NCBI GenBank assembly: GCA_963681505.1
Contig: OY811974.1
Span: 7,370,167-7,434,166 of the forward strand
Length of the DNA stretch: 64,000 nucleotides
From: Eunapius fragilis
Lineage: Eukaryota; Porifera; Demospongiae; Spongillida; Spongillidae
Direction: 5' to 3'
The stretch's first letter is position 1, and each line of letters starts with the position of its first letter. The notes below the pieces were generated by a model. It saw only the letters and a list, made by a program, of their open reading frames with translations, had not been told where the DNA came from and did no database searches. The position numbers and the translations under genes are program-made. This document shows positions 1,667 to 62,340 of the stretch, piece by piece.

Positions 1667-2215
1667 TATGGTGTGGAATCCGTGCCAAAAATGAGAAATT
1701 TCTTGTGATGGTTAATTTTTTCTTTACGTATCACGCAGAACTCATGATGGCTATTTTTTTCTTGATGGTTCTTTTTTTCAAGTGGGATAAACTTCTCGTG
1801 ATGGTTAATTTTCTCCTAACGTATTTCGCAGAACTCATGATGGTTATTTTTTTCTTGATGGTAAATTTTTGCGATGGTTAATTTTTTGTAACGTATCTCG
1901 CAGAACTCATGATGATGGTTATTTTTTTCTTGATGATTCTTTTTTTCAAGTGTGATGAACTTTTCGTGATGATTAATTTTCTCCTAACGTATCTCGCAGA
2001 ACTCGTGGTTGTTTTTTTCATGCGAACTTTAGTTTATCCAAATATCCGACAAAGAAAATAATTCTATATCTGTTTTCGCGATGGTTAATTTCCTAACGTA
2101 TCTCGCAGAACTCATGATGCTTTTTTTTTTTTTTCCAGTCCAAAAAAAACTTCGTGGTGGCCCTAACGTATCGTGATCGTCATTATGGTTCTTTTTTTTT
2201 CAGTCGTAGGCCTAT
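1667..2215 (+). repeat. left TIR and subterminal repeat array
   Basis: A 32-bp perfect TIR is followed by degenerate tandem units combining GTGATGGTTAATTTTT, AACGTATCTCGCAGAACTCA and TGATGGTTATTTTTTTC. The whole block matches 16306-16848 in inverted orientation, including a unique internal segment (GCGAACTTTAGTTTATCC near 2023). Repeated subterminal motifs are typical transposase-binding regions; that role is inferred. Confidence 0.9.
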
Positions 2216-2608
2216 ATCGCGAACTAGATTAATAGCTTGCCGCGCTACTTTTTAATGTAAAGTGGCTACTTTTTACACGAGTATCTAGTCAGACAGCGGT
2301 TATGTAGTTACAAAGACCAACAGTACATGTGGAAGGCTGTTTATTTCCAAGACTTAATAGCACCATGATCCGCTCATGCATCATTTCCACCTCAGGATTC
2401 AGGCCTTGCGTTACAGAGCTATTGATAGATATGGAATCGTTTCATCATGCCATCATGCCCTGTTATCCACAATTATACACAGCCATTCATTATCAAATGT
2501 ACCGAATTGATTGTAGCTTCTGCTTATCTAATTCTATATCCACACAATTTAAATCATATTAACATTGTACAAAATAAATAATAAAAAAACATAAACCACA
2601 TATTAGTA
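2216..2608. other. spacer between left TIR and integrase stop
   Basis: AT-rich. No coding potential recognised. It probably holds the 3' UTR of the minus-strand integrase gene; AATAAA-type strings on the minus strand are plausible but not specific. Confidence 0.4.
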
Positions 2609-5600
2609 TTAGTCACTGGAAACGTAATGCAGAACTTCTAAAAAAGTATCAATTCCATAATTATGACTCCTCGCCATTGGATCCATCATTAAACACAGGT
2701 CATCAAGTTCATCTGCTGTTAAGGTAGTTGTAATTGGTGGAACATAAACATCCCCATCTCCTTCCTCCTGTGGCAGAGGCCCTTCATAATCTATGCCATA
2801 AAACTGAAAGACAATATTTGTGCACTAAATGGCAGGCACTATATTACTTGAATACTTATTACTAGAAAGTTGAAATGCATCGTTACTTATAACTGATGAA
2901 TGTGTAATGTACCGAGCATCCTCCCGGTACCTTTATTCCCACCTTTTACATTTGACAGTGCATGCTCGTTGTTCAGGTCCTCAGTTTGGAGCTTTGCCCG
3001 AAATTTCCAAGCTCATATTCCTTTTCTATGAGCGTCAAAGTGAAGTTATTTGATCGAGATATGCGTGGTTACTATAATCGCACTAATATCTCAATAGCAT
3101 TAACGCTCTGGCCTAGGACCAAAGAAAAAGAATTAGACCCTGGCAATTTGGGCCAAACTCCAAAGGACCTGAACAATGAGCATGCACTGTCAAATGTACA
3201 AGGGATGTTAAACTGGCAGAACGTGAATAAATTTATTTTCTGTACACCGTGGTAGACAAATGTACCCCGGGACGATGCCCGCAGCTTGAGATAAAAATTG
3301 GACATTGCATTGAATGTATCATTAATAACCATGCAACTACATCTTTTAAAGTACTACAGGTGCAGTTGGTACAATACCATGTTCATATGGGCTAGTGACT
3401 TGGGCAGCACACATAAAGCATAATACAAGACCATACACAATATTAATATACTTGTGTCCAAATACTACATATTTTTCCAAGGGTCAAACTTCATTTCAGC
3501 ACAATTTATAATCATAATAGGTCAGCAAACATTAATAACTGGTGATGTGTTAATTTCAAAACCTAAAGGTATGATACTAGGCTATGGATGAAGTATAACA
3601 AATCATGCCTTACAACCATTCAATTACCAACGATTTGTGGGGTGGGGTGGTACTCCTTGTATATTTCAATATAAGATAATAGAAGAACAGACAATTACGG
3701 GTACATTATCATAACAAAGTTAATTTTAATACTATAATAAACAAATGGAAAAGTGTTCACACTTTTTCTAGTGATAATAATTAATGGAAGGATAATAGTA
3801 GCTCATATGCATGGTTTTACGGGAACACCTACATGAAGCTTTGTACATTGCCCATACTCAGCAGTGCAACTTGTTTTGATTAACAAAGGAAAAAAGAATA
3901 ACCTAACCTCATCAATATTGCCGATATCTTCATTTGTATGTAACATTCCTTCCATCCACAGCTGCAGAGGACTTAAGTTATCTGCTGTACGAATGGAGTG
4001 ATTTATCCAAGCCCCTTTCCACTGTTGAAGATGGTTATTGATGCGTGGAACATAAACAAAATGGAGGCTGAAGAGGTGCGTCTCATTATCTGGATCTAAA
4101 ACATCTATTGCCTCCATGTACAAAAAAAGGTCGTGGTAGAATTTTATAACACCAACATAAACATCTCTCCACAACCGTTCTATACGCTGGTTGTGAACAC
4201 TTTTGCCCACCAGCATGGATCCCCTATTTGGCCCTCGCTGCGGGTGGGTCAACATGAACCAAGCAACTGCAGTATTCTCTCTACCCTGGTCTGATCTAAC
4301 ACGTCGTGGTAACCCATAAAGTTCTATAGCATCCTTAAAGAGGTTCAGAACTGTCTGTGACTCATTGTTAGAACTGCAACTGAGATAAACAGGTATTCGG
4401 CTGTATCCATCAATACCACCATGAATTACCATTCGCCACCTATACAAGTAAACATATAAGCATTCTTAATTCAGTACACATAGCATAACAGCACAAGAAT
4501 GATAATGCATAATTACATTATATTACATTATATATATATATATACAAGTACTGAAAAATTTGCCATTCACTTTTAATAGTTATAAAAGTGCTCTCCATTA
4601 GAATCACAAAAACTTCCAAATAATTAATTCTACATACTGTATGTATTTGTGCCACCATTTCTCTAAGGTTCATTTTATTTCTGTCCCTTAGGTCCTCTCC
4701 GTACAGTTAATACACAGAGCATTACCCCTAGAGGAGAGTCCAAATCCTTTCAAAACTGGAAAATGCATAAAAGGGGCCTATAACTTATGATTTGTCCTGT
4801 TCATTAAATTATACTCTCTACCTGTTGTACAGATACAGCTGTGCAAAGTACGTCACTTTTTCCTGCTTAATTCATGTCAGTTGTTTTGGGCAAACTGCAT
4901 CCCATCAAATGTATGGGAAGAGGGTGCACAAATCATTGTGAAAGAGTATAAATTAATGAAAGCAAGGAATAATAGTGGTTAAAACAGAGAGCATATTTAT
5001 AATATATACAGATGGGAAATATTCTTCATGTCAACTTCTCATACAGAGAAAACATATTACAGATGTACCACATTAATTGATGCATGTATTAAATTAAGCC
5101 AAAGTACACAACACAATCAATACAACATTTAAAATATCTTTATCACAATGATACCTTATTAGCTTATGGTTTCCATCTATGTGCCACAAAGATAGAGGTG
5201 AACGGACTGAATAAATACGCCTTACAATTGTTTCATTCCACCTAACAGCAAGGCTGGCTGGAGAAATTCGGTGAAGACTATCTCTTATTCGCTGCTGCTG
5301 CACATGAATGTTGAGATGTTGCAAGTGGCCTGCCATCATACGATATCCAGAATTTGGAAATAATTCGAATACATTCCTTACAACTTCATCAAGCTGTGCA
5401 TCTGACAATATAGAATATAAATCAGAAACACAGAGTCCAGCAGCTTCCATCCTACGTCTGATTGTGCGCACAGAAACACCAAACAACCTTGCTATGTGAG
5501 GAACTTTAAAATGCAACTGCAACATATATGCAAGCTGATCTGTGTTGATTAAAACTTGAGGTCTTCCTCTATTTCCAGTTCGCATTACAGTTACTTGGAT

Positions 5601-5697
5601 TGAAGCATTCTCAGCATCATTTTCAGCAGCATCTAAAATTACTAATCCTTCAGCCACTAGATCAGCTACTTCATGTGCACCAGCAGCAACTAGGCAT
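2609..5697 (-). CDS. DDE integrase/transposase, spliced (IS3EU-like)
   Basis: Three exons join in frame with GT-AG introns: 5697-5155, 4439-3908 and 2803-2609 (stop), about 422 residues. The first contains a helix-turn-helix region ([12 protein letters not shown]... through [14 protein letters not shown]) and ends in [10 protein letters not shown]. The second continues [14 protein letters not shown] and is the integrase core. Candidate catalytic residues are Asp in HIDGN, Asp in VRSDQGREN and Glu in [11 protein letters not shown], so the triad appears complete. The third is a short C-terminal exon ([14 protein letters not shown]... to HYVSSD), too short and ATG-less to stand alone. The exon at 5697 opens with an acceptor and phase 2, so earlier exons exist upstream; candidates lie at about 6257-6384 and 6894-7030 but I could not join them. 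It would catalyse cut and paste at the TIRs of the element that carries it. No disruption is seen in the three exons. Confidence 0.85.
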
Positions 5698-6767
5698 CTT
5701 TAATTCAATATATACAACATCAATGCAAAATTGCTATGTGCAGATCATTAAAATCATATTGTGTAAACTTCTGAGACTAAAATGTGCCCTTCAACAAACA
5801 TATTTAAAGTTTAGCACAGGCTTTCTTTCTCTAGGACTAGCATCCTTGTTTCTCACATATTGTGAGTTACTTAACAAAGTATAATCACCATTCCATTACA
5901 TTCTCACTCCCTATCTCTCCACCACTTAATCCTGCTACAGATGTTTCACAATATTTTAGTGTTAATAAATGAGGTGAATGGGACCGTGGATCACTTAAGG
6001 ACTGGATTGACCAACCTGGATATTCGCCTAATCTTGGATACATAGATTCCAACAACTGAAACAATTTAATAAACCCTGTCAGCTTCACACCAATGTGTAT
6101 TTTAGTGTGTTCCAGTGCATGAACAAGCCCCACACACTGGCTCATACATGCATCTTTATACACATGCACACATCGAGTACAAAATCATACAGCATATCTT
6201 CTTGTGCACAAGATCTGCATGTAACTAACATGAAAATAACCAGGCATATGTACCTGTACAATAGTTCACACTGTAATATGATTGCATCTTGGGCATGAGA
6301 AGCTTGGTTCTGTAAAAGCAGTTGTTGTACCACCTGGCAAGTTCTCAGTGTGATAGTACGTAAAGCAGATTGCGGTGAAGACATCTAGGTAGATATCAAT
6401 ATGAAATAAACAACACATTTCATAGCATATAGGCCTTCACCTTTGTATAATACATTTCTTACCCCAATGTGAGTTTGCATAATGCTTTGTGTACATGGTT
6501 TATGACAAGTAAACTTTTTTTACCACGCAAAATGCAAAAATGCAGCACAATTATGAACATATGCATGTTATACTTATAAGTAAATGAATGCAGCTTAAAA
6601 GTGGATGTACTGATCAATAGAACATGACATAACACATAGAACAATGCTTGAATCGGAGTAGGTGCGAGGTCTAGCTGCATACATGGGAATCCTGATAACA
6701 TACACAATGTGGTGCATGACCTGGGTGCATGATATAGGGGTGTGGTGGTCAAGATATCACACACATA

Positions 6768-6770
6768 AAT

Positions 6771-6804
<34 letters not shown>
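6768..6804. repeat. (CA)n microsatellite
   Basis: About 18 CA dinucleotides. TH-repeat ORFs across it are artefacts. Confidence 0.95.
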
Positions 6805-6806
<2 letters not shown>

Positions 6807-7345
6807 TGCAATGGATTCTCTATGCCACACGTGCAACAATGTGCACGTGTGGCATGTATGAACCTATTTGTACGAAGACATGATTTACTGACCATTAGTG
6901 TGATCTTCACAACATAGGGCAATCTCTATACATGTAGCTAAAGCTGATGTGCTCACTTGGAGCTTTGCATCATAAGCGTGCCTTATTGCAGAAATGAAGG
7001 CAAGTGCATTTGTGCTGATCTGCATGTCTTTTGTGCTGATATGCATGTCTTTTGTGTCTTCTCCTTTAAATAGCAAATACTTTATAACCTAATCCTCTTC
7101 CTGGCAAAGACATTGATTAGCTAGCTATCTAGCTAAGACATACACACACCATGCACACACACACTAGCAGTCTGCAAAAAGCTTCAAGATGATCTGATCA
7201 TCAGAACATGACATCACACCTAAGTCTAGAACAATGCTTGAATAGGAAAGTAGGTGCGAGGTCCCTGTTACAAAAGCTGCATACATGGGAATCCTACTAA
7301 TGGACACAATGTGGTTTATGAACCAGGTGCATGAGATGGTAGATA

Positions 7346-7346
<1 letters not shown>

Positions 7347-7423
<77 letters not shown>
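7347..7423. repeat. (CA)n microsatellite
   Basis: About 38 uninterrupted CA units followed by degenerate CA/CG alternation to 7460. Confidence 0.95.
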
Positions 7424-7425
<2 letters not shown>

Positions 7426-7690
7426 ACACACATGCACGCACACGCACGCACACACATACACATATGTTAATGCACGTGTGTGTATGTGTGCTATAGGTCG
7501 CTAATCAGGCCCGGTACACAGCATCAAAACTTGGTGCGGCTTATATTATGGGCGTGGCATCTCACGCAACGCGTACGCGCTGAAGAGTTTGAACAGATCT
7601 CTTTCATATGCATTACACACAGGCCATCGCAATACTTTTGAATTGGAAATAAGTAATAAATAAAATTAAAGCTTTGCGTTCATGCATATC

Positions 7691-7722
7691 TGTGTGTATA
7701 TGTGTGTGTGTGGGTGTGTGTC

Positions 7723-7774
<52 letters not shown>
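7691..7774. repeat. (GT)n microsatellite
   Basis: GT alternation with a pure core of about 26 units at 7722-7774. Confidence 0.95.
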
Positions 7775-7778
<4 letters not shown>

Positions 7779-8850
7779 CTAGGTAGCGAAATTAGCCTGC
7801 TGCTAGTTATGTATGCCCTGAAGGTGATTAGGTTATTTTACATCAGTCAAGGTTTTTGTAATCCTTATCACAAGATTTAACCCGAAGTTAGGAGTGAGTA
7901 CTCCATGCTGTACTCAACGACACTAGGCTAGCTCGTGTAAGTCAATCTTTTTGTGTGTGTGTGTGTATCTCAGCCAAGTACTCCAGGCTAACACCATCCA
8001 GGTGTACCTGGCAGCCGTCACCCATCTCCATCTTACTCGTGGGTTCAGCAGTCCAGCCCACAACAACCCAACACTGAACCTGGCCATCAGAGGCATGCAA
8101 CGCTCCCAGGGCCCAGCCCACCTCAGACCCAAGAGACTGCCTCTCACCATTGGGATGCTGGAGCAACTGCTGAGGTTACTGAACAGCGATCCACTGAGCA
8201 ATCATGACAAGCTGATGCTGAAAGCAGCCCTCACTATCGGTTTTTTTGGGTTCCTGAGGGTTAGTGAGTACACCCGGACTACCAGAGGCAGATTCGACCC
8301 CAGACTCCACCCCACCTGAAGCGATGTCACCTGGGTCAAGGAGGGCCTTCACTTCCTCATCAAGAAGTCGAAAACGGACCAAACCGGGAGAGGCACCATA
8401 ATATCCATGGGCTACACTCATCGTGCATCATGCCCAGTCACGGCACTGCGAGCATACTTCGAAAACTGCACAGCACCACCAAAAGCAGCCCTATTTCACT
8501 TCCACACTGGCCGCCCACTCACCTCCAGAGCTATGAGAGCCATCTTGAAAGATCTACTGCTCAGGGGTGGGTACGACACCTCCAAATACAATACCCACAG
8601 TCTCCGGATTGGGGCAGCAACAGCAGCAGCACAAGCAGGGCTTCCACCATCCACCATCCAGCGGCTGGGAAGATTGAGCAGCACTGCCTACACCACCTAC
8701 ACCCTGCATCCACTGACAAACCCTTCAGACACAGCAACTCTAGCATCAGCACCATGACTCCACTGCACACACATTCACACACTTCATGTGTACTCACACT
8801 TTACCTGGAACCAAATCACCCTTAGTCAATCCATTTGGGGGTTTCACTTG

Positions 8851-9115
8851 GGCGGCACCCTTCGGGCTTCTACCCTGACCTAACCACCTTACCTTGACCA
8901 GCGTCAAGGGGTGGGGCTGACCTAATGGGGACCAGCGTTTCCCTTGGTTCCAGTCAGGCTCAGGGTAGGGGGTCAGCACCCTTACGCACACCCGACTGGC
9001 CAGCTGTCGCCTACCCCCCTTTTGGGCAAACTATAAATTATGCCAAGCGCAATGGGTATCACGATTAGAGCGCATGTAGTAAACCAAGCATGAGGGAGCA
9101 TCCAGACAGCATTAA
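8851..9115 (+). repeat. split direct repeat, first copy
   Basis: 265 bp starting GGCGGCACCCTTCGGGCTTC; nearly identical to 9520-9785. Inferred to be the B1 block of a Ngaro-like element. Confidence 0.9.
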
Positions 9116-9519
9116 GTGTTGGTTTAGGTACTAAACTTTGTTTAATGTTTTGGGGGTATGCGAGCAATATGCTATAATCCCCAGGGTTGTACCCCCTGGG
9201 AAAGCCTTACATCCATTCAACCCTGAGCCTAGGGAAAGCCTCGCCTCCATTCAAACCTAAAGCCCTTAAAGTCTGGGATAAGTCTCACTTACATTCAATA
9301 AATCCCCTCATCCAATCTAACACATTGTCCCAAAGATATTGACACCTGATATGGTTCCAGGTCACACACATGTATATAAAGGATGGTAAGGTGGGCAGCA
9401 ATCACTCAGACCAAAGCCAAGTCTGCCAGCTGCATTGTTTACCCACCCACCACTCCACCTGTGCATTGACTGTACTTGTACACATGTTTTGCTGTGTTCT
9501 TACTTGCACATCGATGGTA

Positions 9520-9785
9520 GGCGGCACCCTTCGGGCTTCTACCCTGACCTAACCACCTTACCTTGACCAGCGTCAAGGGGTGGGGCTGACCTAATGGGGA
9601 CCAGCGTTTCCCTTGGTTCCAGTCAGGCTCAGGGTAGGGGGTCAGCACCCTTACGCACACCCGACTGGCCAGCTGTCGCCTACCCCCCTTTTGGGCAAAC
9701 TATAAATTATGCCAAGCGCAATGGGTATCACGATTAGAGCGCATGTAGTAAACCAAGCATGAGGGAGCATCCAGACAGCATTAAG
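9520..9785 (+). repeat. split direct repeat, second copy
   Basis: Second copy of the 8851-9115 block; inferred 3' end of the retroelement at about 9785, after which the sequence diverges. Confidence 0.9.
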
Positions 9786-10520
9786 CATGGTTATAAATCA
9801 CATTGTATGTTTGAATTCTCATGGATGCTGCTAAGTTACCTCACACCTGCTTTCCCATTCAAACATTGTTCTAGGGTTAGGCCATATTCTGTTGATCAGG
9901 TCTTATTGAAGTTACGTATTCTATTGGAGATGTATAAACAATGCCACCACACACACACACGCACACACACACACTCTCTCTCTCTCTCTCTCACTCTCTC
10001 TCTCTCTTCTCTCTCTTTTCATGGCTTAGTTTTATTTTCTCTCTATTATTACTAGTATGTATGGTTCGAAAGCGGCCATTGTTAAATGGTCTACAAAGGT
10101 GAGCTCTTTCCACCCCACCCAAAAGCAAAGCCCCCCTGTGCGGTTTTGTATTAATTAAGCTAGGGGTCATATAAAGTGCGCATTCAAGGACAGTATGTCA
10201 AAGCCATTACTAGCTTGTGACAGTGTGAGAATTATATATACATTATCAGTGGCAGTCTCTCGTATTACGTATACAGTCACCTGATTAACAGGCTCGAATA
10301 CCTTATCTATACAAGTACATGTAACAATGTCAATCCCGTATTTATATTCTCACTGTACTATATCTTCACGTCCCATCCCTTTTTAAAAACACATACTGAG
10401 TGGCAATTTGAATTGTGTGCTTAATCTTAGCTCTCAAACCTGATGTCAATCTGTTCTTTATGTTCTTTGTAGACCAAGCCACTCTTGTACTAACCAAATT
10501 CAAACGCGCATTGCATGGTT
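9786..10520. other. spacer upstream of HECT gene
   Basis: Contains (CA)n at 9949-9974 passing into (CT)n to about 10015, then unique AT-rich sequence. It is the likely location of the HECT gene promoter, but no specific motif can be supported. Confidence 0.4.
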
Positions 10521-10528
10521 CAAATACT

Positions 10529-10587
10529 AGTTGGGCGTAGCCCGACCTTATCGTCTACGTAAGACGAAAGTCGGGCTACGCCCAACT
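10529..10587. promoter_or_regulatory. 59-nt hairpin just upstream of HECT start
   Basis: Arms AGTTGGGCGTAGCCCGAC (10529-10546) and its exact complement (10570-10587) enclose a smaller 6-bp stem TCGTCT/AGACGA around loop ACGTA. It ends 10 bases before the ATG at 10598. A G+C-rich palindrome at this spot could act in transcription, in the 5' UTR, or be a small inserted palindromic element; function is inferred only from position. Confidence 0.75.
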
Positions 10588-10597
10588 ATGTAATAAA

Positions 10598-13409
10598 ATG
10601 AGAAACATTTCAATTCAATCATTGCACAGTTATGCAGAGAAGTTGAGGATGGATGTAGGTTCGAGCGAAAGGGCTAGGAAGTTATTTGAACGAGTCATAG
10701 ACATAGTAACGAGTGATATTGTGCAGGGACGGCCAAATTCTGTGCTGCATACACCGCCTCCTCACCGCGATACTCCGGTGGACCCGTGTCCTATAAGTAT
10801 GTGTATCTTGCATGGTTATAGCTTCTATAATCTATGTTTATCCATTTCTATTCTGACTCCTGTAGCTAACGGGAGGACTAGTGATTGGCGGCGAAAGGGT
10901 GTTACACAACAGTCTAGAGTTCCGTGTGGGGCGGTAGGTGGTTCTGGAGGTAACAGCGCTGCATCGGAACACACAGGCCGACGTTTTGGAGATTCTAGTT
11001 TTAATAGCGCTGAGCCTGAGTATAGCAGGCTTTTTGGGTTCAATAGCAAATCAGGTGGTAAAAGAAAACGTAGCGGTTCCACTCGTACCAAAGTATCTTG
11101 TAGCGTTGAGAAAAAAAAGTACTGGAATCACGAGTGTGTGTGCTTGGCTCGCCGCAATGACAATACAATACCTTCCCCACAAGAAAAAATGGACCTGGCT
11201 GAATTAGGTCTCGGACTAAAGCGCCTAGCATTTGATTGTAATGCTAGTCAACGGGAGATAGATAGTGTTATATATGATGCGTTTCCACAACTATCTACAC
11301 GAGGATACGAACTGCTTAGGACCGCGAGCAAAAGGAAGAATTTAGTCGTGATAAAAACGCCTCCTGATGGGATGACTGTCTTGTATTTGAGAGACCTTTT
11401 ACAGCAGTCCAAACTATTCTTACGACCAACTTTGGAAGATATCAGTTCAGGTAAATCTGAATCTGCATGCATGCGCATGCCCGTACTATGTGTGTGTATA
11501 TATATATATATAATATAATTATAATTATAATTATATACATGTATGTATTTAACACAAATACCATGCATGCATGTATGATTTATGTATACCAGCATGGTAC
11601 GAATGTGAGTCGAATATCATGCACTAGCATGCACGGGACGAAATGAATACGTCTTTAAATGTACGATTCTTTGACATGCACATATATATATGTATAGATT
11701 CTTGATTCTTCGTCTACTGAAAACAAAGGCGGTACAGATGATTTTTATCCTTCCTCGGACTCGGAAAAAGACGTCATTACAGTAGATGATACCGAGTGTG
11801 AAGAAGGATCGACATTGTCTAAGCAGTTCATGACTTGCACACAGCCTAGTACAGCTGACTCCTATCATGTCTCGTCACGCCCGTTTGACGTTTTTCTAGA
11901 AGAGGAGAAAAAGTATGGCTGTATTTATGCGCATGTGCATGCATATACGAAGTCCTAAACTGCATACATGAACGAACAATCCCAGGGCCTTTATGGTTGC
12001 TGATTCGGATGACGAATGGGAAGAGATGATTCAACAGGCGGTTGATAGAAGCTTGGCGGACGGCACAGCACCAATTCCGTAATGATATATTTTGGTATGA
12101 GCATGCATGTATGCATGCATCATTCCGTACTATGCAGACAACCAGAGACTCCAAAAGACTCTTTCGAGGATGCTTTCAAAGATTTCGTCAAAAGAGTGTT
12201 AAAATCTGATGCAGTGCAAAGAATAATTGTGCGTCGTTCAAACGTATGGGAAGATTCGCTGAAGCAGTTTACTAAACTTCAAGGTCTGTCCTACAATAAA
12301 AATATAAAGGTAACCTTTGTAGGAGAGCCTGCTGTCGATTCCGGGGGCCCACGCAGGGAATATTTTACACTGTTAATACGTGCCATTGCTACGAACAACT
12401 CATTATTTGAGGGTGATACCGATCGGAGATTGCCTAGGGTAAACGTATCAGCATTGATTAAAAAAGACTATTTCCAAATTGGAAGAATGATTGGGGCATC
12501 TTGGCTCCATGGAGGGTCATCTCCCTTTCTAGCGAATTCAGTTGTTGACTATATTATTAAAGGATTTGATGGAGTTACTATTCAGGTGTTAGAAATAGTA
12601 GATGAAAGTGTCCGAAAAATGCTTATGCAGGTACAGTATATATTTGTGCATACAAGTGCAGTGTAATGTGATTTTTCTTCTTTTGTCCAGCTTGAAAAGA
12701 CTACAGATCTTCAAGAACTACACGATATATTGGACAACCCAACAATTTCCTACCGCTTTGATCATGGAATCAGCAAGTCCTCTTCGGCTTATACCCTACA
12801 TGATAAGGTGAACCTTGTTAAAGTGTTGTGTTTGCAAAATACCATTCTCTGTCGGAAAGCTCAAATTGACCAGCTCATAGAAGGGCTGAATGAATTTGGT
12901 CTCCTAGAAATTATTAGAAAATATCCTGAAGAGGGACACAAGATGTTTTTCCAAACCAATAATACAATTCTAACTGCCGATAAACTGATAGATTTATTTA
13001 AAGTACAAATTTCACCTGCTGGTTCAAATCAAAAGGCAATTGAAGAACAAGTTATCATATGGTGGTACGACTACCTTGTTGATGTAGAAGGTAAAAACGT
13101 TCAATATGTTTTGAGGCATGAACAATAAATTCTTTTTTTTTTTCAGAAGGAAAGGTACTAGCATTGCCTAGTAGGTTACAAATAACTTTGCAACACATAC
13201 TCCAATTTATAACTGGAACTGATGTGATTCCAATGTTTGGCTTTGATATTCCTCCAACCATTCAATTCTGCCACAATCCTACCATTACTCTGCCCACAGC
13301 CAACACCTGTTCACTGACACTTACCCTTCCAACTGCTTGTAGGGATGATACTTTTGCCAGCAAGATGACTTTTGGCATTGCCAACTGCATTGGTTTTGGA
13401 ACTCTATGA
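10598..13409 (+). CDS. HECT-type E3 ubiquitin ligase with UIM, transposon-borne
   Basis: Seven exons join without any frame break: 10598-10796, 10866-11450, 11729-11912, 11986-12078, 12138-12630, 12691-13090 and 13147-13409, giving 738 residues. Introns are 59-278 nt with GT-AG ends. Residues about 150-265 form a module (WNHECVCLA... to ELLRTASKRKNLVVIKTPPDG) common to the large G2E3-like HECT families of invertebrates and fish. Residues about 331-346 (DDEWEEMIQQAVDRSL) match a ubiquitin-interacting motif. HECT follows: KVTFVGEPAVDSGGPRREYF begins the N-lobe and LPTANTCSLTLTLP holds the catalytic Cys at residue 706 (codon 13308-13310), so the thioester site is intact. Predicted to transfer ubiquitin to unknown targets. 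It lies inside the TIR-bounded transposon, divergent from the integrase. The exon 3 acceptor (11728/11729) was picked because it preserves phase; exon 1 start is the first ATG after the hairpin. Confidence 0.88.
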
Positions 13410-14146
13410 CATCTCTAGCAAGATGGCTTCGGCATATTGGTTTTGAGTCGATGGCTGTAGTTAAAAAGTTTTGCTCAGTTCACCAAGTTTTGTCATTTTT
13501 TTCATTTTTTATTGCCATTTGCTGCCATTTCTCATGCTCAATGTTATTGTGACTTCATTTGTGATGAATTTTAATGTCAGTCTGAATGGGGCAATATTGT
13601 CTTTACAGTGAGAAACATGCCCATATTGGTACTGCTCTGACCCAGGAATCATTGCATAATATTGTGCGCTACCAATTAAGTACCTCCTGCTATATTCATG
13701 CTCCCTCAGGACTGCCTGCAGTTTTGTAAGCACTGGTACCAGTGTAAAATTCGTAACCAACTAGGTTGGGCAGGAGGCAGGTACCTAACGTTCACTACAA
13801 GAAGCTTTCCTCATCCCAGGTCTCATCTGCAGGCCTCGAGTGATTTGATTATCTGGATTAGTTAATGGCCATCTCTTGCCATTCACACTCATACAGCAGA
13901 TAGAATAATTCAACATATGATTGACCAGAACATCAGGCTAGGAGTAACATTTATTCTTACTGTGATTGAACTGATATGAGTGAGAGAGTGGAAGAGGGAA
14001 GGAGAACATGCACTTACACACATACACCAACACTAGCCAGGTTCTGATGACTTCACACTGATCCTATGGGAATGGGAACCAGAGAAAAGCAAGACTTCAG
14101 TAGCCAGGATGACGGGTACTGCGACCATATACAACCTGTTCAAGTT

Positions 14147-14187
<41 letters not shown>

Positions 14188-14640
14188 AGGTCACCCATTG
14201 CTTTCAGCTCACAGGTCGTACATAAGGTGATGTATTCATACCACATGTAACACTCAGCCAGGCAATAGCAATGAGAAGACAGTTACGTACATCAAATGAC
14301 ACCTTCTATACCAATACTAAATAAAGGAATGTTCGAGATCAGTTCAGCACATGGACACACACAAAACATGCATGTACGGACACAGAATTTTCAATACTCA
14401 GTAACTAGTGTACTCACCCACCCATGACCAGCTAGGAGGCATGGTTTCATTGGCAAACATTGATAGTGTGTGTTTGGACATGTGGCCCACTATGTATAGT
14501 ACATGTTAGGAGAGCTAATTGACTGGCTTAATAGATGTTGGGATTGCCATGTACCAGTTTGGTAACAGTGTTAATGAGTTTGGAGTGGTGAGGAGACAGC
14601 TTCTAGCATCATAATGAGGTGAGCTCGCAGCAAGGAAATC
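13410..14640. other. spacer 3' of HECT gene
   Basis: No coding signal recognised. An (AC)n run lies at 14151-14186. An open minus-strand stretch at 13509-13760 has no recognisable domain. Confidence 0.4.
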
Positions 14641-14649
14641 ACTGGACCC

Positions 14650-15550
14650 ATTGTAGTGAGCACTACAGTTCTTCATTCAGTTAATTGCAGAGAGCATCCT
14701 TCGCATATGATACACCTTGAATGAAGTCCACGCAGGCCAAGTCTCCTATAGTAATAACATATGACTTCTATTAGATTGGAGTTGTTGCGTGACATAGTGT
14801 TTGATGTGGTAAATGCCCTCGGTGACCCTTTCTATGTGGACCATCCTGCAGAAGCACACCAGGGTAACTGTTAACTGGGGATCAACTGCAGCAATATCTA
14901 AACCAGACAGTAACTTCCTGGTCTTGGCACACTTCCCAGCGATAAACATGGTGGAGCAGTGTAATTAACCCCCAATGCCAAGAATGCCCAGGTTAGGCAG
15001 GTGAAACCAACTCACATCAGGTGCATGGGAATGAGGTGTTGCCCTTCTTGCTGAATGGCTCACACTTGGCCAGGTTCACATGTAGGCCCCTGTGCAGGGC
15101 CTAACTCCTCCATTTGGTGCAAGGCACGGTGTATAGCTGAGTGGGTACTACCCAAGGCTCCATATAGCTTGAAGGATTTCAACACGATCATCATCTGCAT
15201 CCTGGCTGGATACCAACTTCTGGAGAACTAATGCAAGCAGTAATGGTCCTAAAGGGTCACCTTGCTGCACTCCAGGCTCAGAGCTGATCCGCCAAGAGGG
15301 TGCCATAGTACCAAGTCACTAAGGTAGCAACTCAGGGGAATATGTACCATACTCATCAAGGACTGCTTGCTTGGAGATATATTAAAGGCGCTCCTCACGT
15401 CCACCTTAAGCACAATGTCCTCATCCATCCAGTGCTCCTCAATGCATCCTTGAGAGCATGGACCATCTTCTCTGCCACTCCATGACAGGCTCCGGGGTGA
15501 AAAGGGCAGAGTGGGCAACTGGAGCTACTGGTGTTTGACAGCAGGGGTGT
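14650..15550 (-). pseudogene. non-LTR retrotransposon RT remnant
   Basis: Minus-strand translation in shifting frames shows reverse-transcriptase-like strings: DIVLKVDVRSAFN (the usual VDVSNAFN motif), an L-x-S-D-L-V-L-W-H segment, and LLALVLQKLVSSQDADDD near 15180-15245 (Q-G-D-P-L-G-P-L-L-context and the D-D box region). Several frameshifts and stops interrupt it, e.g. around 15240 and between 15060 and 14900, so it is dead. It sits between the HECT gene and the right TIR and is either a nested insertion or old transposon cargo. Confidence 0.55.
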
Positions 15551-15559
15551 TTGGACTGC

Positions 15560-16305
15560 AACAGCAGCCATGTGGTCTCATTGTTTGGGGCAATACCACT
15601 GCACTGCATGCAATTAATTAAACCTTAGTGTCCTAGAAATTAATCTGTTAACATTCATTTGTTAATTTGCTCTGTTATACATGTGTATGCGTGTAACTAA
15701 ATAACAGGTAGGTATGCACATAGAACTAACTCGTTAATAAATACTTCATGAGTGCCCCAAATGTCCTAACATGATTGTGAGTTATATACGTATCTCAGTT
15801 ATTTTATCTCGTTTGATCTATCATCCAGGGCCTGCCAAGAGCCATCCCAGGCCCGGGGAGAAAAAATTTTTCCTTATATATTTTACGGTCTGCCAGGAGG
15901 ATTGCAGCTAAAATCTATCATTCACAGCGACGAAAGTGGCGATCTTTGGATGTACGCTGCGACACGATTGCAGCGGTCATGCAACATTCTCAGCGATCGC
16001 TGGATGAATTGAGCGACGAGTCATCGATACGATCAACCCTCGATCGTATCACCGATGACAGCTAAACGATTGATATCAACGGATGATCGCAGCGCCTACG
16101 GAGGTGGGGTGCGGGGGGGGGGGGGGGGGGGGGGGGGGGGAATTGCCCGGACCATCAGAGCCACGGCCGACAAGCCTGTAGGCAACGCCCTCCGGGTCGG
16201 TAATAAATGGTTTCTACATACATAATTTTTGGGGTGCCCAGACCATGGCATGCCCACATCGTCACAAACCGTCTCAAAACGTCCAACTTTGGAAGGTTTG
16301 TGACG
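15560..16305. other. spacer with 28-base poly-G
   Basis: Unique sequence with several GATCG-rich strings (15930-16090), then an uninterrupted G28 at 16113-16140, then about 165 bp leading into the right subterminal array. No gene recognised. Confidence 0.5.
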
Positions 16306-16848
16306 TTTATAATAAATAACCATCATGAAAAAATAACCATCACGGAAAGTTTTTCACACTTAAAAAAATAACCATAATGAAAAAATAACCATCAAGAATT
16401 TTCAGCGAAGTACATTTGGACAAAGTTAACCATCACGAAAAGTTTTTCACACTTGAAAAGAATAATCATCATGAAAAAAAAACCATCGTGAGTTCTGCGA
16501 CGTACGTTAGGAAGGAATTAACCATCACGTAAAGATTTCACACTTGAAAAAAAATAACCATCATGAGTTCTGCGAGATGGGTTAGGAAAAATTAACCATC
16601 GCGAAAACAGATATGGAGTTATTTCCATTGTCGGATATTTGGATAAACTAAAGTTCGCATGAAAAATTTAACCATCACGAGTTCTGCGAGGTACGTTACA
16701 AAAAAATTAACCATCACGAAAAGTTTATCTCACTTGAAAAAAAGAACCATCAAGAAAAAAATAGCCATCATGAGTTCTGCGTGATACGTAAGGAAAAAAT
16801 TAACCATCGCAAAAATTTTCTCATTTTTGGCACGGATTCCACACCATA
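16306..16848 (-). repeat. right TIR and subterminal repeat array
   Basis: Inverted counterpart of 1667-2215, made of AACCATCA-containing units with GAGTTCTGCGA blocks and ending in the 32-bp TIR. Copy number and unit order differ slightly from the left side, so the two ends have drifted in the array while the terminal 32 bases stayed identical. Confidence 0.9.
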
Positions 16849-16854
16849 CTCTTC
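16849..16854. repeat. right target-site duplication CTCTTC
   Basis: Identical to 1661-1666. The two copies sit exactly at the outer edges of the 32-bp inverted repeat. Confidence 0.85.
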
Positions 16855-47761: not shown

Positions 47762-50291
47762 TGTTAGATCGTCGTCGCCTACATGTAGGCGTCTTATTGC
47801 AAAGTTTGGAAAATAATTATAGCCGTACTCTAAATGTTACAGGGAATTGAAATACAGTTTTGAGTAAAAATATATATACGCATAAAATATACGCAAAGAA
47901 TTCATGTCAAACACATTGCTTGAATCAGGTAATTATAATTGCGTTCTTGCTCAAAGCGCAATCGCAACGTGGTCAATGTGAAAAGCCACGCACGATGTAA
48001 ATCCAGGCTTTGTACTTCCAGGGTTACAAATAGGAACGATCTCATTTAGCTGTGTGCACTCATCGCAATAATATGCCGTCTTACTTTCACAGCAGACGCT
48101 ACTCTTCCATTGCACACTAGGTACATGGCCAATGTGTGAGGTGGCTTCTTCATCGCTGATGCTTGTACTGAAACACTGGACACTCTCATGTTAGTTTTTA
48201 GTGTGTGTGTGCTCATTATCTTTCAACTACTGTCTGTAATGGCTGTATAGTGGGCATGACAGGCATGTGTTTCTGAAGACGTGCGGAAGGCCCGGTGTCG
48301 TGGAACAACGATTTATATGTAAGTTGCTGCAAAGATAGGCGCTCTGTATACTGTCTGTGGGAAAGATTGGGAGCAAGAGGATGAAAATACCGCAAGGCAA
48401 GATATGCATCAGCCTTGCACATGCCGAAGATAGTGGCAAAATTGCGATGCCATGATGTGTGCGTTTTCCAATGATGCTCGAACTCAAGGCCCCCCTGGCG
48501 TGGATGGTTATGGACATCAATAGCATTTGCGTTGTCAAATTATGCCTCCAGAACTGCTGGCCTCTTCTTTATAGAAAACAACACATGGTGCACTTGTTCT
48601 GTCTTCTGGTGTGGATTGACGACAGCGCTTCTTGTACGCAGGGCAGAATGTTGCTGGTACTAGAAACGAACATTTTCAGTTTCTTGTCACTCCAGCCCAC
48701 AGCCATGTACTGCTTTCCATCAATATTGGTTAGGAGCACACAATGGTCACCTCTATTAGTGTACGGATATTTCGGAAGCCATGCTTTCGGAAATTGCTTG
48801 TCTTTACTAGGCCAATGAAACGAAGACCACGATGTTTGTGGAGTGCTTCTGCTGTCTTCAACGAAGCAAATGCCGAGTCGGCAACAACTGTATGGTCGAC
48901 TCCAGTATCTGGTCAACCGTATAACTGATGATGTGCCAGAGCCATAATCCTTTGCATACTCTTTTTCTTGCATTGGAACCTTACCTTTTTGGATCTCCAT
49001 TTGCAGCATGATCTTGGTCTCTCCACAGGACAGTGTGCGGTGTTCAGTTCCAACCCCTTCTGGTTTCCTTGCAATTTTAGTTACATGTGGTAAGCCTACA
49101 ACAGCATTATCTACCTCAGCAGACAATCCTCGCCAACTTCCCATACTCTCATCAGCACACAATGTTACACCAGGTGAGATGCTCTCTCTGCGATTCCTAT
49201 TGAAAGAATCCACTGCACTTCGAATAGGCAACCATGGATCATCTGCCAACTCTTCATCGTGTACACACACAGCTTCAAGTTCCAAAGTATTCTTTCGAAA
49301 TCATGGCAGGCCATATACCTTCCAAAAGCAGGGAGGGAATGGTCTGAAAGCAGAGTCATTGCAAGGAGAATGCCAAAGAAATGCTGCCGCTGCTCACAAT
49401 CAAGAGGTTTCTCTGCCATTTCAGTATGCAGGTTGATGGCTTTGATGATGTTGCGCATGAGATCTGCAGGCATCATTTTCGAAAAATCCTGCTCCGTGGA
49501 CCTCTTGTGCAGTGGATGGTGTAATGCAGCCTTGCGCTGATATGCTGGCCCATTCAGTTCAACAGTTGTGTCACCCATTTTACGCCATTCAACACCATTG
49601 AGTACTATTCTATCGTCATCACCATTAGACCCTGCTGCTGTGTCCCCATTGCTCCAGTTGGTTCTTCTGCATCATGCAAAATGCATGCGGGCATAAATAA
49701 AGAGATGTATTTGATAATGAACAGTAACGGGTATTGAAAGTTGGGAGTCTTACCCTTCTGAAACGTTGCTTGCTCGACGGGATGCTCCATCTTCATCTAC
49801 TTTGCGCATCTCATCACTGTCGCTGGTGCTGTTTTCATCGAGGAAGTATTGGAGCTGCAGTAATCTTGCTCAGAAACAGCCCTAATGGACGTTGAGGGGG
49901 GCGGAATTAAATGCCTTTGCTCCATTTCCAGCGTCCTAGCTGAAAAATGTTCCAAAACACTGCCATTCAGCTTTACTATTCATTTTCGTGCCCGTCCTAC
50001 TCCTTCCGATGCTTGCACAACTCCTTTCTGTGTGGAAAAATTGCCTCTCAAAACCCGCACTCCGCTACCAACTTTTATGCCCTTCGCCATTGAAAGCATG
50101 CGCGCGACGATTCAGTTAAGAAATGAGAATGAAATAACTTTTAATAGAAAGAGCAATGTTTCAGCTTTGCATGGTATCAATTGGCAAATTTTTAAACTAC
50201 GAAAAAGTACCTTAGCATTATTCAAAAAACGCCTACAGGTAGGCTTAAATTGTGTTTTGCACCTACACATAGGTGCTTGTTCGATCTACCA
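47762..50291 (-). mobile_element. piggyBac-like element inside the Tigger gene
   Basis: Candidate ends TGTTAGATCG (47762) and TGGTAGATCG (read inward from 50291), with TTTA at the left and TTAA at the right, close to the TTAA target of piggyBac. Short palindromes (CGCCTACATGTAGGCG at 47775, GCCTACAGGTAGGC at 50231, CACCTACACATAGGTG at 50258) occur near both ends. It separates the two halves of the Tigger gene. The exact ends are uncertain. Confidence 0.6.
48569..49800 (-). pseudogene. piggyBac transposase (DDE_Tnp_1_7, PGBD4-like)
   Basis: 49578-49165 gives the N-terminal region (DFSKMMPADLMRNIIKAINL...). The catalytic part follows in the overlapping frame: WLPIRSAVDSFNRNRRESIS, then TLCADESMGSWRG (first Asp), VVADSAFASLKTAEALHKH (second Asp, about 48890-48840, read in another frame) and VGWSDKKLKMFVSS (third Asp). 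The 48915-48790 stretch is displaced relative to both sides, implying two compensating frameshifts, and the N-terminal join is also shifted, so the gene is broken but recent enough to keep all three catalytic Asp. A short C-terminal region may extend to about 48200. Confidence 0.75.
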
Positions 50292-59649: not shown

Positions 59650-62340
59650 TACCTACATGTACCAACGGGGTTCACGGAAGCTTGGCTATGGTCTCAGATA
59701 CCGCGGCCAGCTGGCGAGCTGGCGTACGGATATAGGTGAGGAATGCAGCACTGTTCCAACGCCCCAGTGTTTGAATTGTCGAGTCCTCGACACCCGCAAT
59801 TGCGGCTGCTGATACGGAAGCTGTGGCCCGCGTACTGCTCAGGGCGTAACCCCGCATGCGCCAGCACCTTCCGAACTTCAGCGATGAACTTTTCCTTTTG
59901 TAATGGGCTGCCGTCTCTTGTGACAAAGAATGGACCAGGTTCCGTTCCCCTCATGCGGAGAAACGCCAGGCACGCCGTGATGGGGCAGAGAACATTCGAG
60001 GTCTGCCCGATAAATACATCTGCTCCATACCCGTATTGATCACACTTCGAGGTAGAGAGGTGGATCTTCATCATTGTGGGCTTGCCTGGGTGATCGAATG
60101 ATATGTCCTCCCATTTCAGCCGCCCCCCGGGTTCAGGAGCTCGCCTAGCCAGAAGAACCCAAAGAAACAAATACAGGCGGCTGCCCACAGCACTTCGTTG
60201 TGACCTAATTCCCCACTACCCCAATGATCTCGCAGGCGTCGCAGAAGCATTGGGGTGATCGGACGTCTCGTCTTAGAAGGCGTGCCCTTCTGGGATTGGA
60301 ATCAACGAATTCTGGCTTGGATTCTATCGAGTCTCGGGAGGGAGGAGTGACAGCGAGGCTCTGGCATGCCTAGGGCGATCTGGGCGTCACGTACCGCAGC
60401 GAGGTTTTTTTAATTGTCTGTGACAACAGGTTGTCTTTGGCAAGGTAGACCGCGAAGTAACATAATGTATTCTCAGATACAGGGAAAGGGGACACTAACG
60501 TAAAGGTGCTACAGTACTCGTTGAATCGCTTCATTCCGGCTGCGTATGTCCGATGGGTTGACTCTGCGAGGCCTTCTTGAAGAAGAAATGAACATCTTCG
60601 TCCAGGCCTGGGAGAGCCAGTCGAGGTCGGGGGACAACAGGGACCGGATCAGCCGTTCTGGTTGATTGTCGGGGGCGGGGTTGGCGAGCGGTGCCTGTGC
60701 AAAGAAAAGGTCCGTGTTATCGTGTGACAGGGCGTCTGCCACTGTGTTAAGGACTCCGGGGATATGAAGGCAGCGGAGTTGGAAATTAAATGCAGCCTCG
60801 ATGTAGAAGAGACAGCGGAGCATGTGCATCATATGCTCCTCCTAACTGGTTCGCAAGAGCAATGTGGACACCACGACCTGGTTGTCGCACCTACACGTCA
60901 GCCCCTTCCACTGAGCGCCCCAGATTGCGGAGCCAAGGATGATTGGAAGGAGCTCCTTCGCAGCGATGGGCAGATGCACTGCGCTCTCGTCCCATTGCAC
61001 TTGCAGCCAATGAGAACCCCAAAAGGTGCTACAGCCCCACGACCCAGACGCATCAGACACCAGTTCGACCATGGCGGATGGCTGTGCACAGGCGGACATA
61101 AAGCCGACTCTGTTCCATTCCTGAAGAAAGGCATGCCACCACGCCACGTCAGCTTGGAATGCCCTATTCAGCCGGACGAAGCCGCCATGGCCCCGCTGGG
61201 ACCCGCGCCCAGCAGAACTGGAGAGGAGGTTGAGCATGCAGCGCAGGAAAGAGTGCCCAGGTCGAACAACCTTGCAGGCATGATTGAGTAGCCCTATCAA
61301 GGACTCGAGTTCACGTCTTGAGCACGCCTTACGCCCCTCCCACTGTTGCACCATGGATTGTACACGTTCCAGCTTGTCTTTTGGGAGGCTCAGTGTACAA
61401 TTCACTGTGTCTATCTGAATGCCTAGAAATGTCAAGCACGACTTGGGGCCTTCGCATTTTGCAACTGCCAACGGAACTCCCAACTCCTTGCACATCTCAA
61501 CTAGGATGTGCAAATCATCGGCACATCTGGAGGTGCCAGGGGGACCGGCAATCACATAATCATCCAGATAGTGGGCCGTGTAAGCAACTCCCTTCCGCCG
61601 AATGATCCACTCGAGTGAATCGGCTAGCGCATTAAAAATCTTAGGAGCCGATCGCAGACCGAACGGGAGCATACAGTCACAGTACACCTTCCCCTCCCAT
61701 ATGACTCCCAAGAGAGGCCGGTCCAATGGGTGAACTGGGATCAACCTGGGGAGTTACTGGGGAGGATAGGTCCGTAATCACCCACCACATATTGGGCGTG
61801 TGACCTTTTGATATTACGCCAACCGGGTTCAAGTGGATTCCCGCCTTCGAAAGGGGACCGGTGAAACAGCTGAGACTGAGTTCTTTCCGGAGGTATTCAG
61901 AAACCACCGACTCCTGCAGCTTGGCCGATGGCAAGTTCTGCTTGGCCGCTACGAGCCGGGACGACCGATTGAAGCCGATGCGAAACCCGTACGCCAATCC
62001 GTCGAACAGCCAGTTCTTGAAAAGGGGTCCGGGTGTGGGCCCGTTACGGCAACGTGCGAGTTGCACTGACAGCGGTTGAACCAACGCTGAGGGAGCAGCG
62101 GTCCCGATGAGGAATGTGGCCGATTCGCCATCATGCAGCGATGGTAACCCTTGTACGAGGAACATGCACGAGAGAGCTGATGCACTCAGGCACATCAGTT
62201 CCCCAGGAGCACAGACACTGGTACTGATTTGGACACAGCAGCGTCCACATTCAGTGGAACTCCATCTACCACCAGGTCCACATTTGCAAGAGGATGGAGC
62301 ACACTGTCTCCATGTGCACACCGTACATTGATCGCTTCCA
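59650..62340 (-). mobile_element. DIRS/Ngaro-like retroelement fossil
   Basis: Minus-strand order: N-terminal pol region (62321-61750), reverse transcriptase with CMLPFGLRSAPKIFNALADS and the AHYLDDYVIAG box, RNase H-like region (VELVSDASGSWGCS...), then a tyrosine recombinase with GHSFRI (H-x-x-R box). RT-RH followed by a tyrosine recombinase instead of a DDE integrase is diagnostic of DIRS-type elements. It is broken, with a handful of breaks; no gag-like part or terminal repeats are identified. Long intact stretches suggest a fairly young insertion. It ends about 380 bp upstream of BEN-C. Confidence 0.85.

Follow-up and report, generated by a model that had tools for sequence, protein, structure and literature searches.

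How does a gene for a complete HECT-type E3 ubiquitin ligase come to lie, together with an integrase gene, between the ends of a DNA transposon in the genome of a sponge? The question is raised by a 64,000-nucleotide stretch of the Eunapius fragilis assembly GCA_963681505.1 (contig OY811974.1, C4:7370167-7434166; hereafter the window), in which an element of 15,182 bp extends from position 1667 to 16848. Having examined this element and its relatives in 219 Mb of the genome (24 contigs), we propose that it is a transposon of the IS3EU/GingerRoot kind in which a HECT ligase recurs as a second gene, and that the ligase would ubiquitinate a host protein of the nucleus that keeps the element in check; we give this reading a probability of about 0.6. 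That the ligase travels with the transposon follows from the finding that several related elements, with insertion scars of their own, carry a HECT gene.

A base-by-base comparison of the two ends bore out the perfect 32-bp terminal inverted repeat (TIR) claimed in the original prediction. The first 32 bases (1667-1698, plus strand, starting TATGG) are the reverse complement of the last 32 (16817-16848, minus strand, ending CCATA), and the first mismatch falls at base 33. The claimed target-site duplication, CTCTTC, is likewise exact and flanks the element at 1661-1666 and 16849-16854. Inverted subterminal repeats, which had also been claimed, are present as well, the longest measuring 191 nt (92% complementary), 102 nt (89%) and 86 nt (92%); with weaker repeats included, the regions containing them extend over about 1667-2130 (plus) and 16328-16848 (minus). 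A chance TIR was rejected, as the first 24 bases of the repeat, with up to 3 mismatches allowed, occur at 81 sites in the 219 Mb and the reversed control pattern at none.

The integrase gene lies on the minus strand (2609-6384) in four exons (6384-6254, 5697-5155, 4439-3908 and 2803-2609) and encodes a predicted protein of 466 residues. The DDE triad said to be complete was found to be so, in the form of D218, D275 and E312 with the spacing D218-56-D275-36-E312, and the protein matches the Pfam models rva_4 (3.2e-80) and rve (6.9e-8). Neither a CxxC nor an HHCC pattern was found in it. The hallmark of Polinton/Maverick elements is a DNA polymerase B accompanied by virion genes, none of which was seen among the ten reading frames scanned (36 frames of at least 80 residues were listed). 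Ginger1, which combines an HHCC domain with a 4-bp duplication (PMC10045372), was rejected because of the missing HHCC domain and the 6-bp duplication. According to the same paper, IS3EU/GingerRoot elements have 6-bp duplications, TA..TA ends, an integrase-like DDE core without HHCC and a first catalytic D placed 100-300 residues from the N terminus. The window element shares each of these traits: duplications of 6 bp were found here, in a copy described below (GGAAGG) and in 13 of 18 further TIR pairs, its termini read TATGG..CCATA, its DDE core has no N-terminal HHCC, and its first D is residue 218. The ends also fit the TAYGG..CCRTA consensus of rust IS3EU families, which have TIRs longer than 30 bp and 6-bp duplications (PMC12730594). 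The IS3EU affiliation offered earlier from family traits thus agrees with the literature, and these traits support placing the window element among the cut-and-paste DNA transposons, as one of the IS3EU/GingerRoot type.

The ligase gene is on the plus strand, and its seven predicted exons (10598-10796, 10866-11450, 11729-11912, 11986-12078, 12138-12630, 12691-13090 and 13147-13409) span 10598-13409, with GT..AG borders at all six introns. The 738 residues given in the original prediction were recovered, the acceptor of exon 3 being ambiguous between 738 and 735. Residues 437-736 match positions 8-304 of the 306 in the Pfam HECT profile (E = 6.4e-15), and the closest solved structure is that of AREL1 (6jx5, E 1.5e-14), on which the motif containing Cys706 is aligned. 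A full domain with a thioester cysteine near the C terminus, by which HECT E3 ligases are recognized, is therefore present. AREL1 and the NEDD4-type ligases share the bilobal HECT domain and the aligned catalytic cysteine with the window protein; they are, however, cellular proteins, whereas the window protein has a conserved N-terminal domain (11108-11449, plus) with no Pfam match and no match in the PDB below E = 0.8. Cnidarian and fish annotations commonly include multi-copy HECT proteins whose N-terminal part is similar. Basic stretches resembling nuclear signals occur at residues 75, 132, 149 and 222, and a motif resembling a ubiquitin-interacting motif (UIM), EEMIQQAVDRSLAD, occupies residues 335-348 (12020-12061, plus), with no Pfam match in the window copy. 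A UIM-like motif stands just before the HECT domain in three of the element families, A (that of the window), B and D, and when the HECT protein was shuffled 5000 times, the pattern turned up in 67 of the shuffled sequences.

A DNA search of the genome with the ends of the element gave 23 matches for the left and 35 for the right. Among the close copies, which together form subfamily A, the second full one is C13:3648245-3661677 (13,433 bp). It is 97-98% identical to the window element from end to end, apart from a nested insert in the latter, carries both integrase and HECT genes and is flanked on both sides by GGAAGG; a length change in its last HECT exon interrupts the reading frame. Because this copy is collinear with the window element, we rejected the idea of a host HECT gene caught between unrelated ends. 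A third copy, on C3, is split by insertions and incomplete on the left as far as read, its left part ending at the equivalent of window position 2376, and it offers no usable duplication. Directly abutting its right end is a 341-bp left-end fragment (positions 200-541 of piece L011, C3:10625500-10635499), which may have arisen when one member of the family inserted within another. At C7:5364596 one terminus accompanies a HECT gene of 84-87% identity, with the closest integrase match 140 kb away, and the stretch 6411500-6419500 on C9 holds a damaged HECT gene flanked on each side by further DNA of the element. Thus the HECT copies closest to that of the window (C13, C3, C7:5364596 and C9:6415142) are all accompanied by more of an element, either whole or broken.

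More distant relatives were sought through their termini. A second terminus, from the end of a more distant family with both genes, was found at 154 sites (control 0). Flanks were read for a selection of 18 among the possible TIR pairs, 10 with the first terminus and 8 with the second; 13 of the 18 have a 6/6 duplication, whereas among 306 mismatched pairings 1 does. Adding the window and C13 copies gives 20 pairs, 15 of them with perfect duplications, and their gene content was assigned from the coordinates of the genome-wide HECT and integrase matches. Among the 15, five hold HECT and integrase, three integrase only, seven neither and none HECT alone; the five pairs without a perfect duplication comprise two with both genes, one with integrase only and two with neither.

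The five elements in which perfect duplications bound both genes fall into three families and support the earlier suggestion that HECT is transposon cargo. Beside the window and C13 copies they are two subfamily B elements, C9:8580130-8615476 (35,347 bp, duplication TATGAG) and C7:2181470-2216191 (34,722 bp, GAAGTT), and a family C element, C4:995454-1019412 (23,959 bp, GATGTT). The dispersed copies with differing 6-bp duplications that the original prediction had suggested looking for are accordingly found, first in the window and C13 pair and then in these relatives. Subfamily B integrase exons are 68-86% and parts of its HECT gene 41-62% identical to those of the window, and each B element contains a second, partial HECT match. 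In the family C element, both of whose proteins are confirmed by Pfam, there are two integrases with 49% identity; the left end of a family C copy on C5 reads N. HECT and integrase genes are oriented divergently in A and B, and in family C the HECT gene runs in the same direction as the neighbouring integrase. As separate observations, reverse-transcriptase-like frames were recognized by eye at C9:8590814-8592412, inside the 35-kb B element, and the two integrases of C4:995454-1019412 lie near its opposite ends in opposite orientation, which with the perfect GATGTT gives it a composite-like appearance.

Three elements of 6.5-6.8 kb with the window-type TIR and perfect duplications carry the integrase only (C8:744756-751415, C9:2115067-2121543 and C9:2994928-3001689, the last with one mismatch in its left TIR). 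The genome-wide coordinates place no HECT match in any of them, and in one that was read the integrase is present, with no tblastn match to HECT below E = 1.6. The seven perfect-duplication pairs in which neither gene was matched are 4.5-15 kb long (for example, C11:5708806-5719253) and are either non-autonomous copies or carriers of other cargo. An outcome that had been named beforehand as counting against the cargo claim, namely TIR copies lacking HECT with HECT homologues at conserved host loci, was therefore seen in its first half: many TIR pairs are without HECT, but the closest HECT copies are not at a clean host locus.

The association of the two genes extends well beyond the bounded elements. 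Searches with the transposon proteins gave 108 HECT matches at 63 loci and 132 integrase matches at 104 loci. Within 25 kb of an integrase lie 26 of the 63 HECT loci (random mean 1.28, maximum 6 in 2000 simulations) and within 10 kb 16 of the 63 (mean 0.53, maximum 4, again in 2000), figures to be read with the approximate contig sizes used for placement, the non-independence of element copies and the scoring of best candidates only. With the Pfam HECT model 139 matches were obtained; when all HECT clusters were combined, 35 of 111 were near an integrase and 76 had no integrase match within 25 kb. Proximity of this order does not by itself mean a shared element, and the elements shown to be bounded are the five above. 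The conserved N-terminal domain (44 matches in 41 clusters) is near an integrase in 25 clusters, and clusters found by Pfam only are so in 9 of 48 cases. None of the 44 Pfam HECT rows that score above the window HECT lies within 25 kb of an integrase, the closest being 188 kb away; these are presumably for the most part host genes. Viral contigs searched with an integrase frame and a HECT exon contained no relative of either.

To follow the history of the pair, the HECT C-lobe (about 75 residues) and the integrase core were compared for 14 co-located loci. The TC motif with the catalytic cysteine is present in 13 of the 14 C-lobes, and in the remaining one, C13, the alignment stops earlier at the frame break. 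Distances were tested over 12 loci, leaving out C13, which is an A copy, and C3:3823231, a near copy of another locus. HECT and integrase distances correlate (Mantel r 0.49, a value reached in 10 of 10000 permutations), as would be expected had the two proteins been fitted together. This is a point in favor of the strongest alternative, in which the ligase acts on its own integrase or strand-transfer complex, in turnover or disassembly, instead of on host defence; a ligase whose work is to extend or read ubiquitin chains would also have use for a UIM-like motif. However, the nearest neighbours of the two proteins agree at only 6 of the 12 loci (A, B, D, F, G and L) and differ at C, E, H, I, K and M, as at the C1 locus (I), where the nearest HECT is that of H and the nearest integrase that of M. 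Nor has the pair been strictly kept between A and B. Their integrases are close, with a silent divergence (pS) of 0.42 and a replacement divergence (pN) of 0.09 over 464 codons, whereas their HECT genes have reached saturation at silent sites (pS 0.81, pN 0.33, 606 codons). Silent divergence should not be raised by protein-level selection, so the common origin of the A and B HECT genes appears to lie further back than that of the integrases, and the pattern looks like an exchange of HECT and integrase modules between elements or a homogenization of the integrase. The existence of integrase-only elements counts against it too. We consider action on the integrase unlikely, though it is the alternative to which we give most weight.

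Several findings weigh against the reading we prefer. Some elements that share this TIR carry the integrase alone, and 7 of the 15 perfect-duplication pairs contain neither gene; therefore, the ligase is not needed for spread and the cargo is optional. The HECT gene is damaged in the C13 copy by its frame break and in the C3, C7 and C9 copies by stops and length changes, leaving that of the window as the only uninterrupted one among five A copies. Between the window and C13 there are 3 silent and 7 replacement changes in HECT and 5 silent and 6 replacement changes in the integrase, and the changes among close copies are too few to show selection. The UIM is seen by Pfam only in D, at 18.8 bits, below the cut-off of 21, and a UIM-like motif was looked for and not found in family C. 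The perfect duplications of elements without HECT and the damage in four of the five A copies examined are also what would be expected of a passive passenger, a host HECT gene caught between TIRs that hitchhikes without function for the element. Against such a passenger stand the occurrence of window-type HECT genes near many integrase lineages and the retention of the cysteine across divergent families; moreover, pN is well below pS between subfamilies, which points to long-term constraint on HECT, although pS has reached saturation. We regard this explanation as distinctly improbable. A mere coincidence of a HECT gene with unrelated TIRs or a TE (transposable element)-rich neighbourhood is scarcely credible in view of five HECT and integrase elements with perfect duplications and the collinearity of C13 with the window copy, even in a genome rich in such elements and with two pairs, C20:3346962-3376985 (2/6) and C20:4187778-4231454 (3/6), that enclose both genes without a matching duplication, so that the two genes there may come from separate elements and the pairs were not counted as bounded.

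Under the preferred reading, in which the ligase is directed at the host, the integrase would bind the ends of the element, cut at the TA termini and insert with a 6-bp stagger, as family knowledge suggests (PMC10045372). The ligase, with its basic stretches, N-terminal domain, UIM-like motif and intact cysteine, would attach ubiquitin to a nuclear host protein that restrains the element, and a chromatin or silencing factor would be its likeliest target. On the substrate itself, we think that a nuclear host factor is the likeliest, with the integrase next. The unequal silent divergence suggests that ligase and integrase genes may recombine as modules between elements.

Accessory genes are not new to DDE transposons. 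Fungal TET+ IS3EU elements, like the window element, have extra genes on board, in their case for a TET/JBP dioxygenase and an alpha-kinase, and TET/JBP has been passed between transposon lineages; they differ in cargo and in their fungal host, and neither 'HECT' nor 'ubiquitin' occurs in the text (PMC12730594). Several Kolobok lineages also carry a second enzyme, but these belong to another superfamily and the enzymes are nucleases and helicases (PMC9587614). The word 'ubiquitin' is absent from the IS3EU/GingerRoot account, and no ligase gene is described in the parts consulted (PMC10045372). Words that start with 'transpos' do not occur in a survey of animal HECT genes (PMC2837046), nor do words that start with 'hect' in a survey of transposon-domain fusions (PMC12062965). 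The original prediction knew of no described DNA transposon of this class with a HECT gene. In a limited search, outside of which lay Repbase, where an entry is possible, and most subscription papers, we found no HECT-bearing transposon among the titles and abstract openings listed, no paper joining IS3EU with HECT and none joining the HECT domain with transposon terms. To that extent HECT as IS3EU cargo stands as unreported, while IS3EU elements with other extra cargo are already known from fungi (PMC12730594).

A transposon that carries a ligase would open a route to the removal or modification of host proteins, in parallel with the proposed use of TET/JBP by fungal IS3EU elements against methylation-based silencing (PMC12730594). 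HECT-bearing transposons are also a possible source of lineage-specific HECT genes. More broadly, though we hold this tentatively and with the balance somewhat against it, an IS3EU-like lineage may over a long time have picked up, dropped and traded a dedicated HECT ligase, made up of N-terminal domain, UIM-like motif and HECT domain, that serves it as a counter-defence cassette. Many of the HECT genes present in multiple copies in such genomes may then be this cargo or its relics, from which new host ligases could arise. The presence and absence of HECT among elements sharing a TIR makes its effect on transposition testable.

The window element also contains a nested insert, absent from the original prediction, at about 7967-9785 (plus). 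It is a remnant with a tyrosine-recombinase frame extending to 8757 (Pfam PF00589, 8.5e-9) and two 266-bp direct repeats that are 100% identical (8851-9116 and 9520-9785), and we take it to resemble the 3' end of a DIRS/PAT-type element. Where the insert lies in the window element, some 118 different bases are found in the C13 copy and in a relative on C9 (piece L028); judged by this comparison, the insert is not part of the ancestral element. Delivery of HECT by the insert was rejected, as C13 lacks the insert yet has HECT. Elsewhere in the window, a reverse transcriptase frame that is DIRS-like by eye lies on the minus strand at 60842-61753 (RVT_1, 4.1e-10), and a presumably piggyBac-like transposase fragment on the same strand at 48569-49300 (DDE_Tnp_1_7, 2.4e-6).

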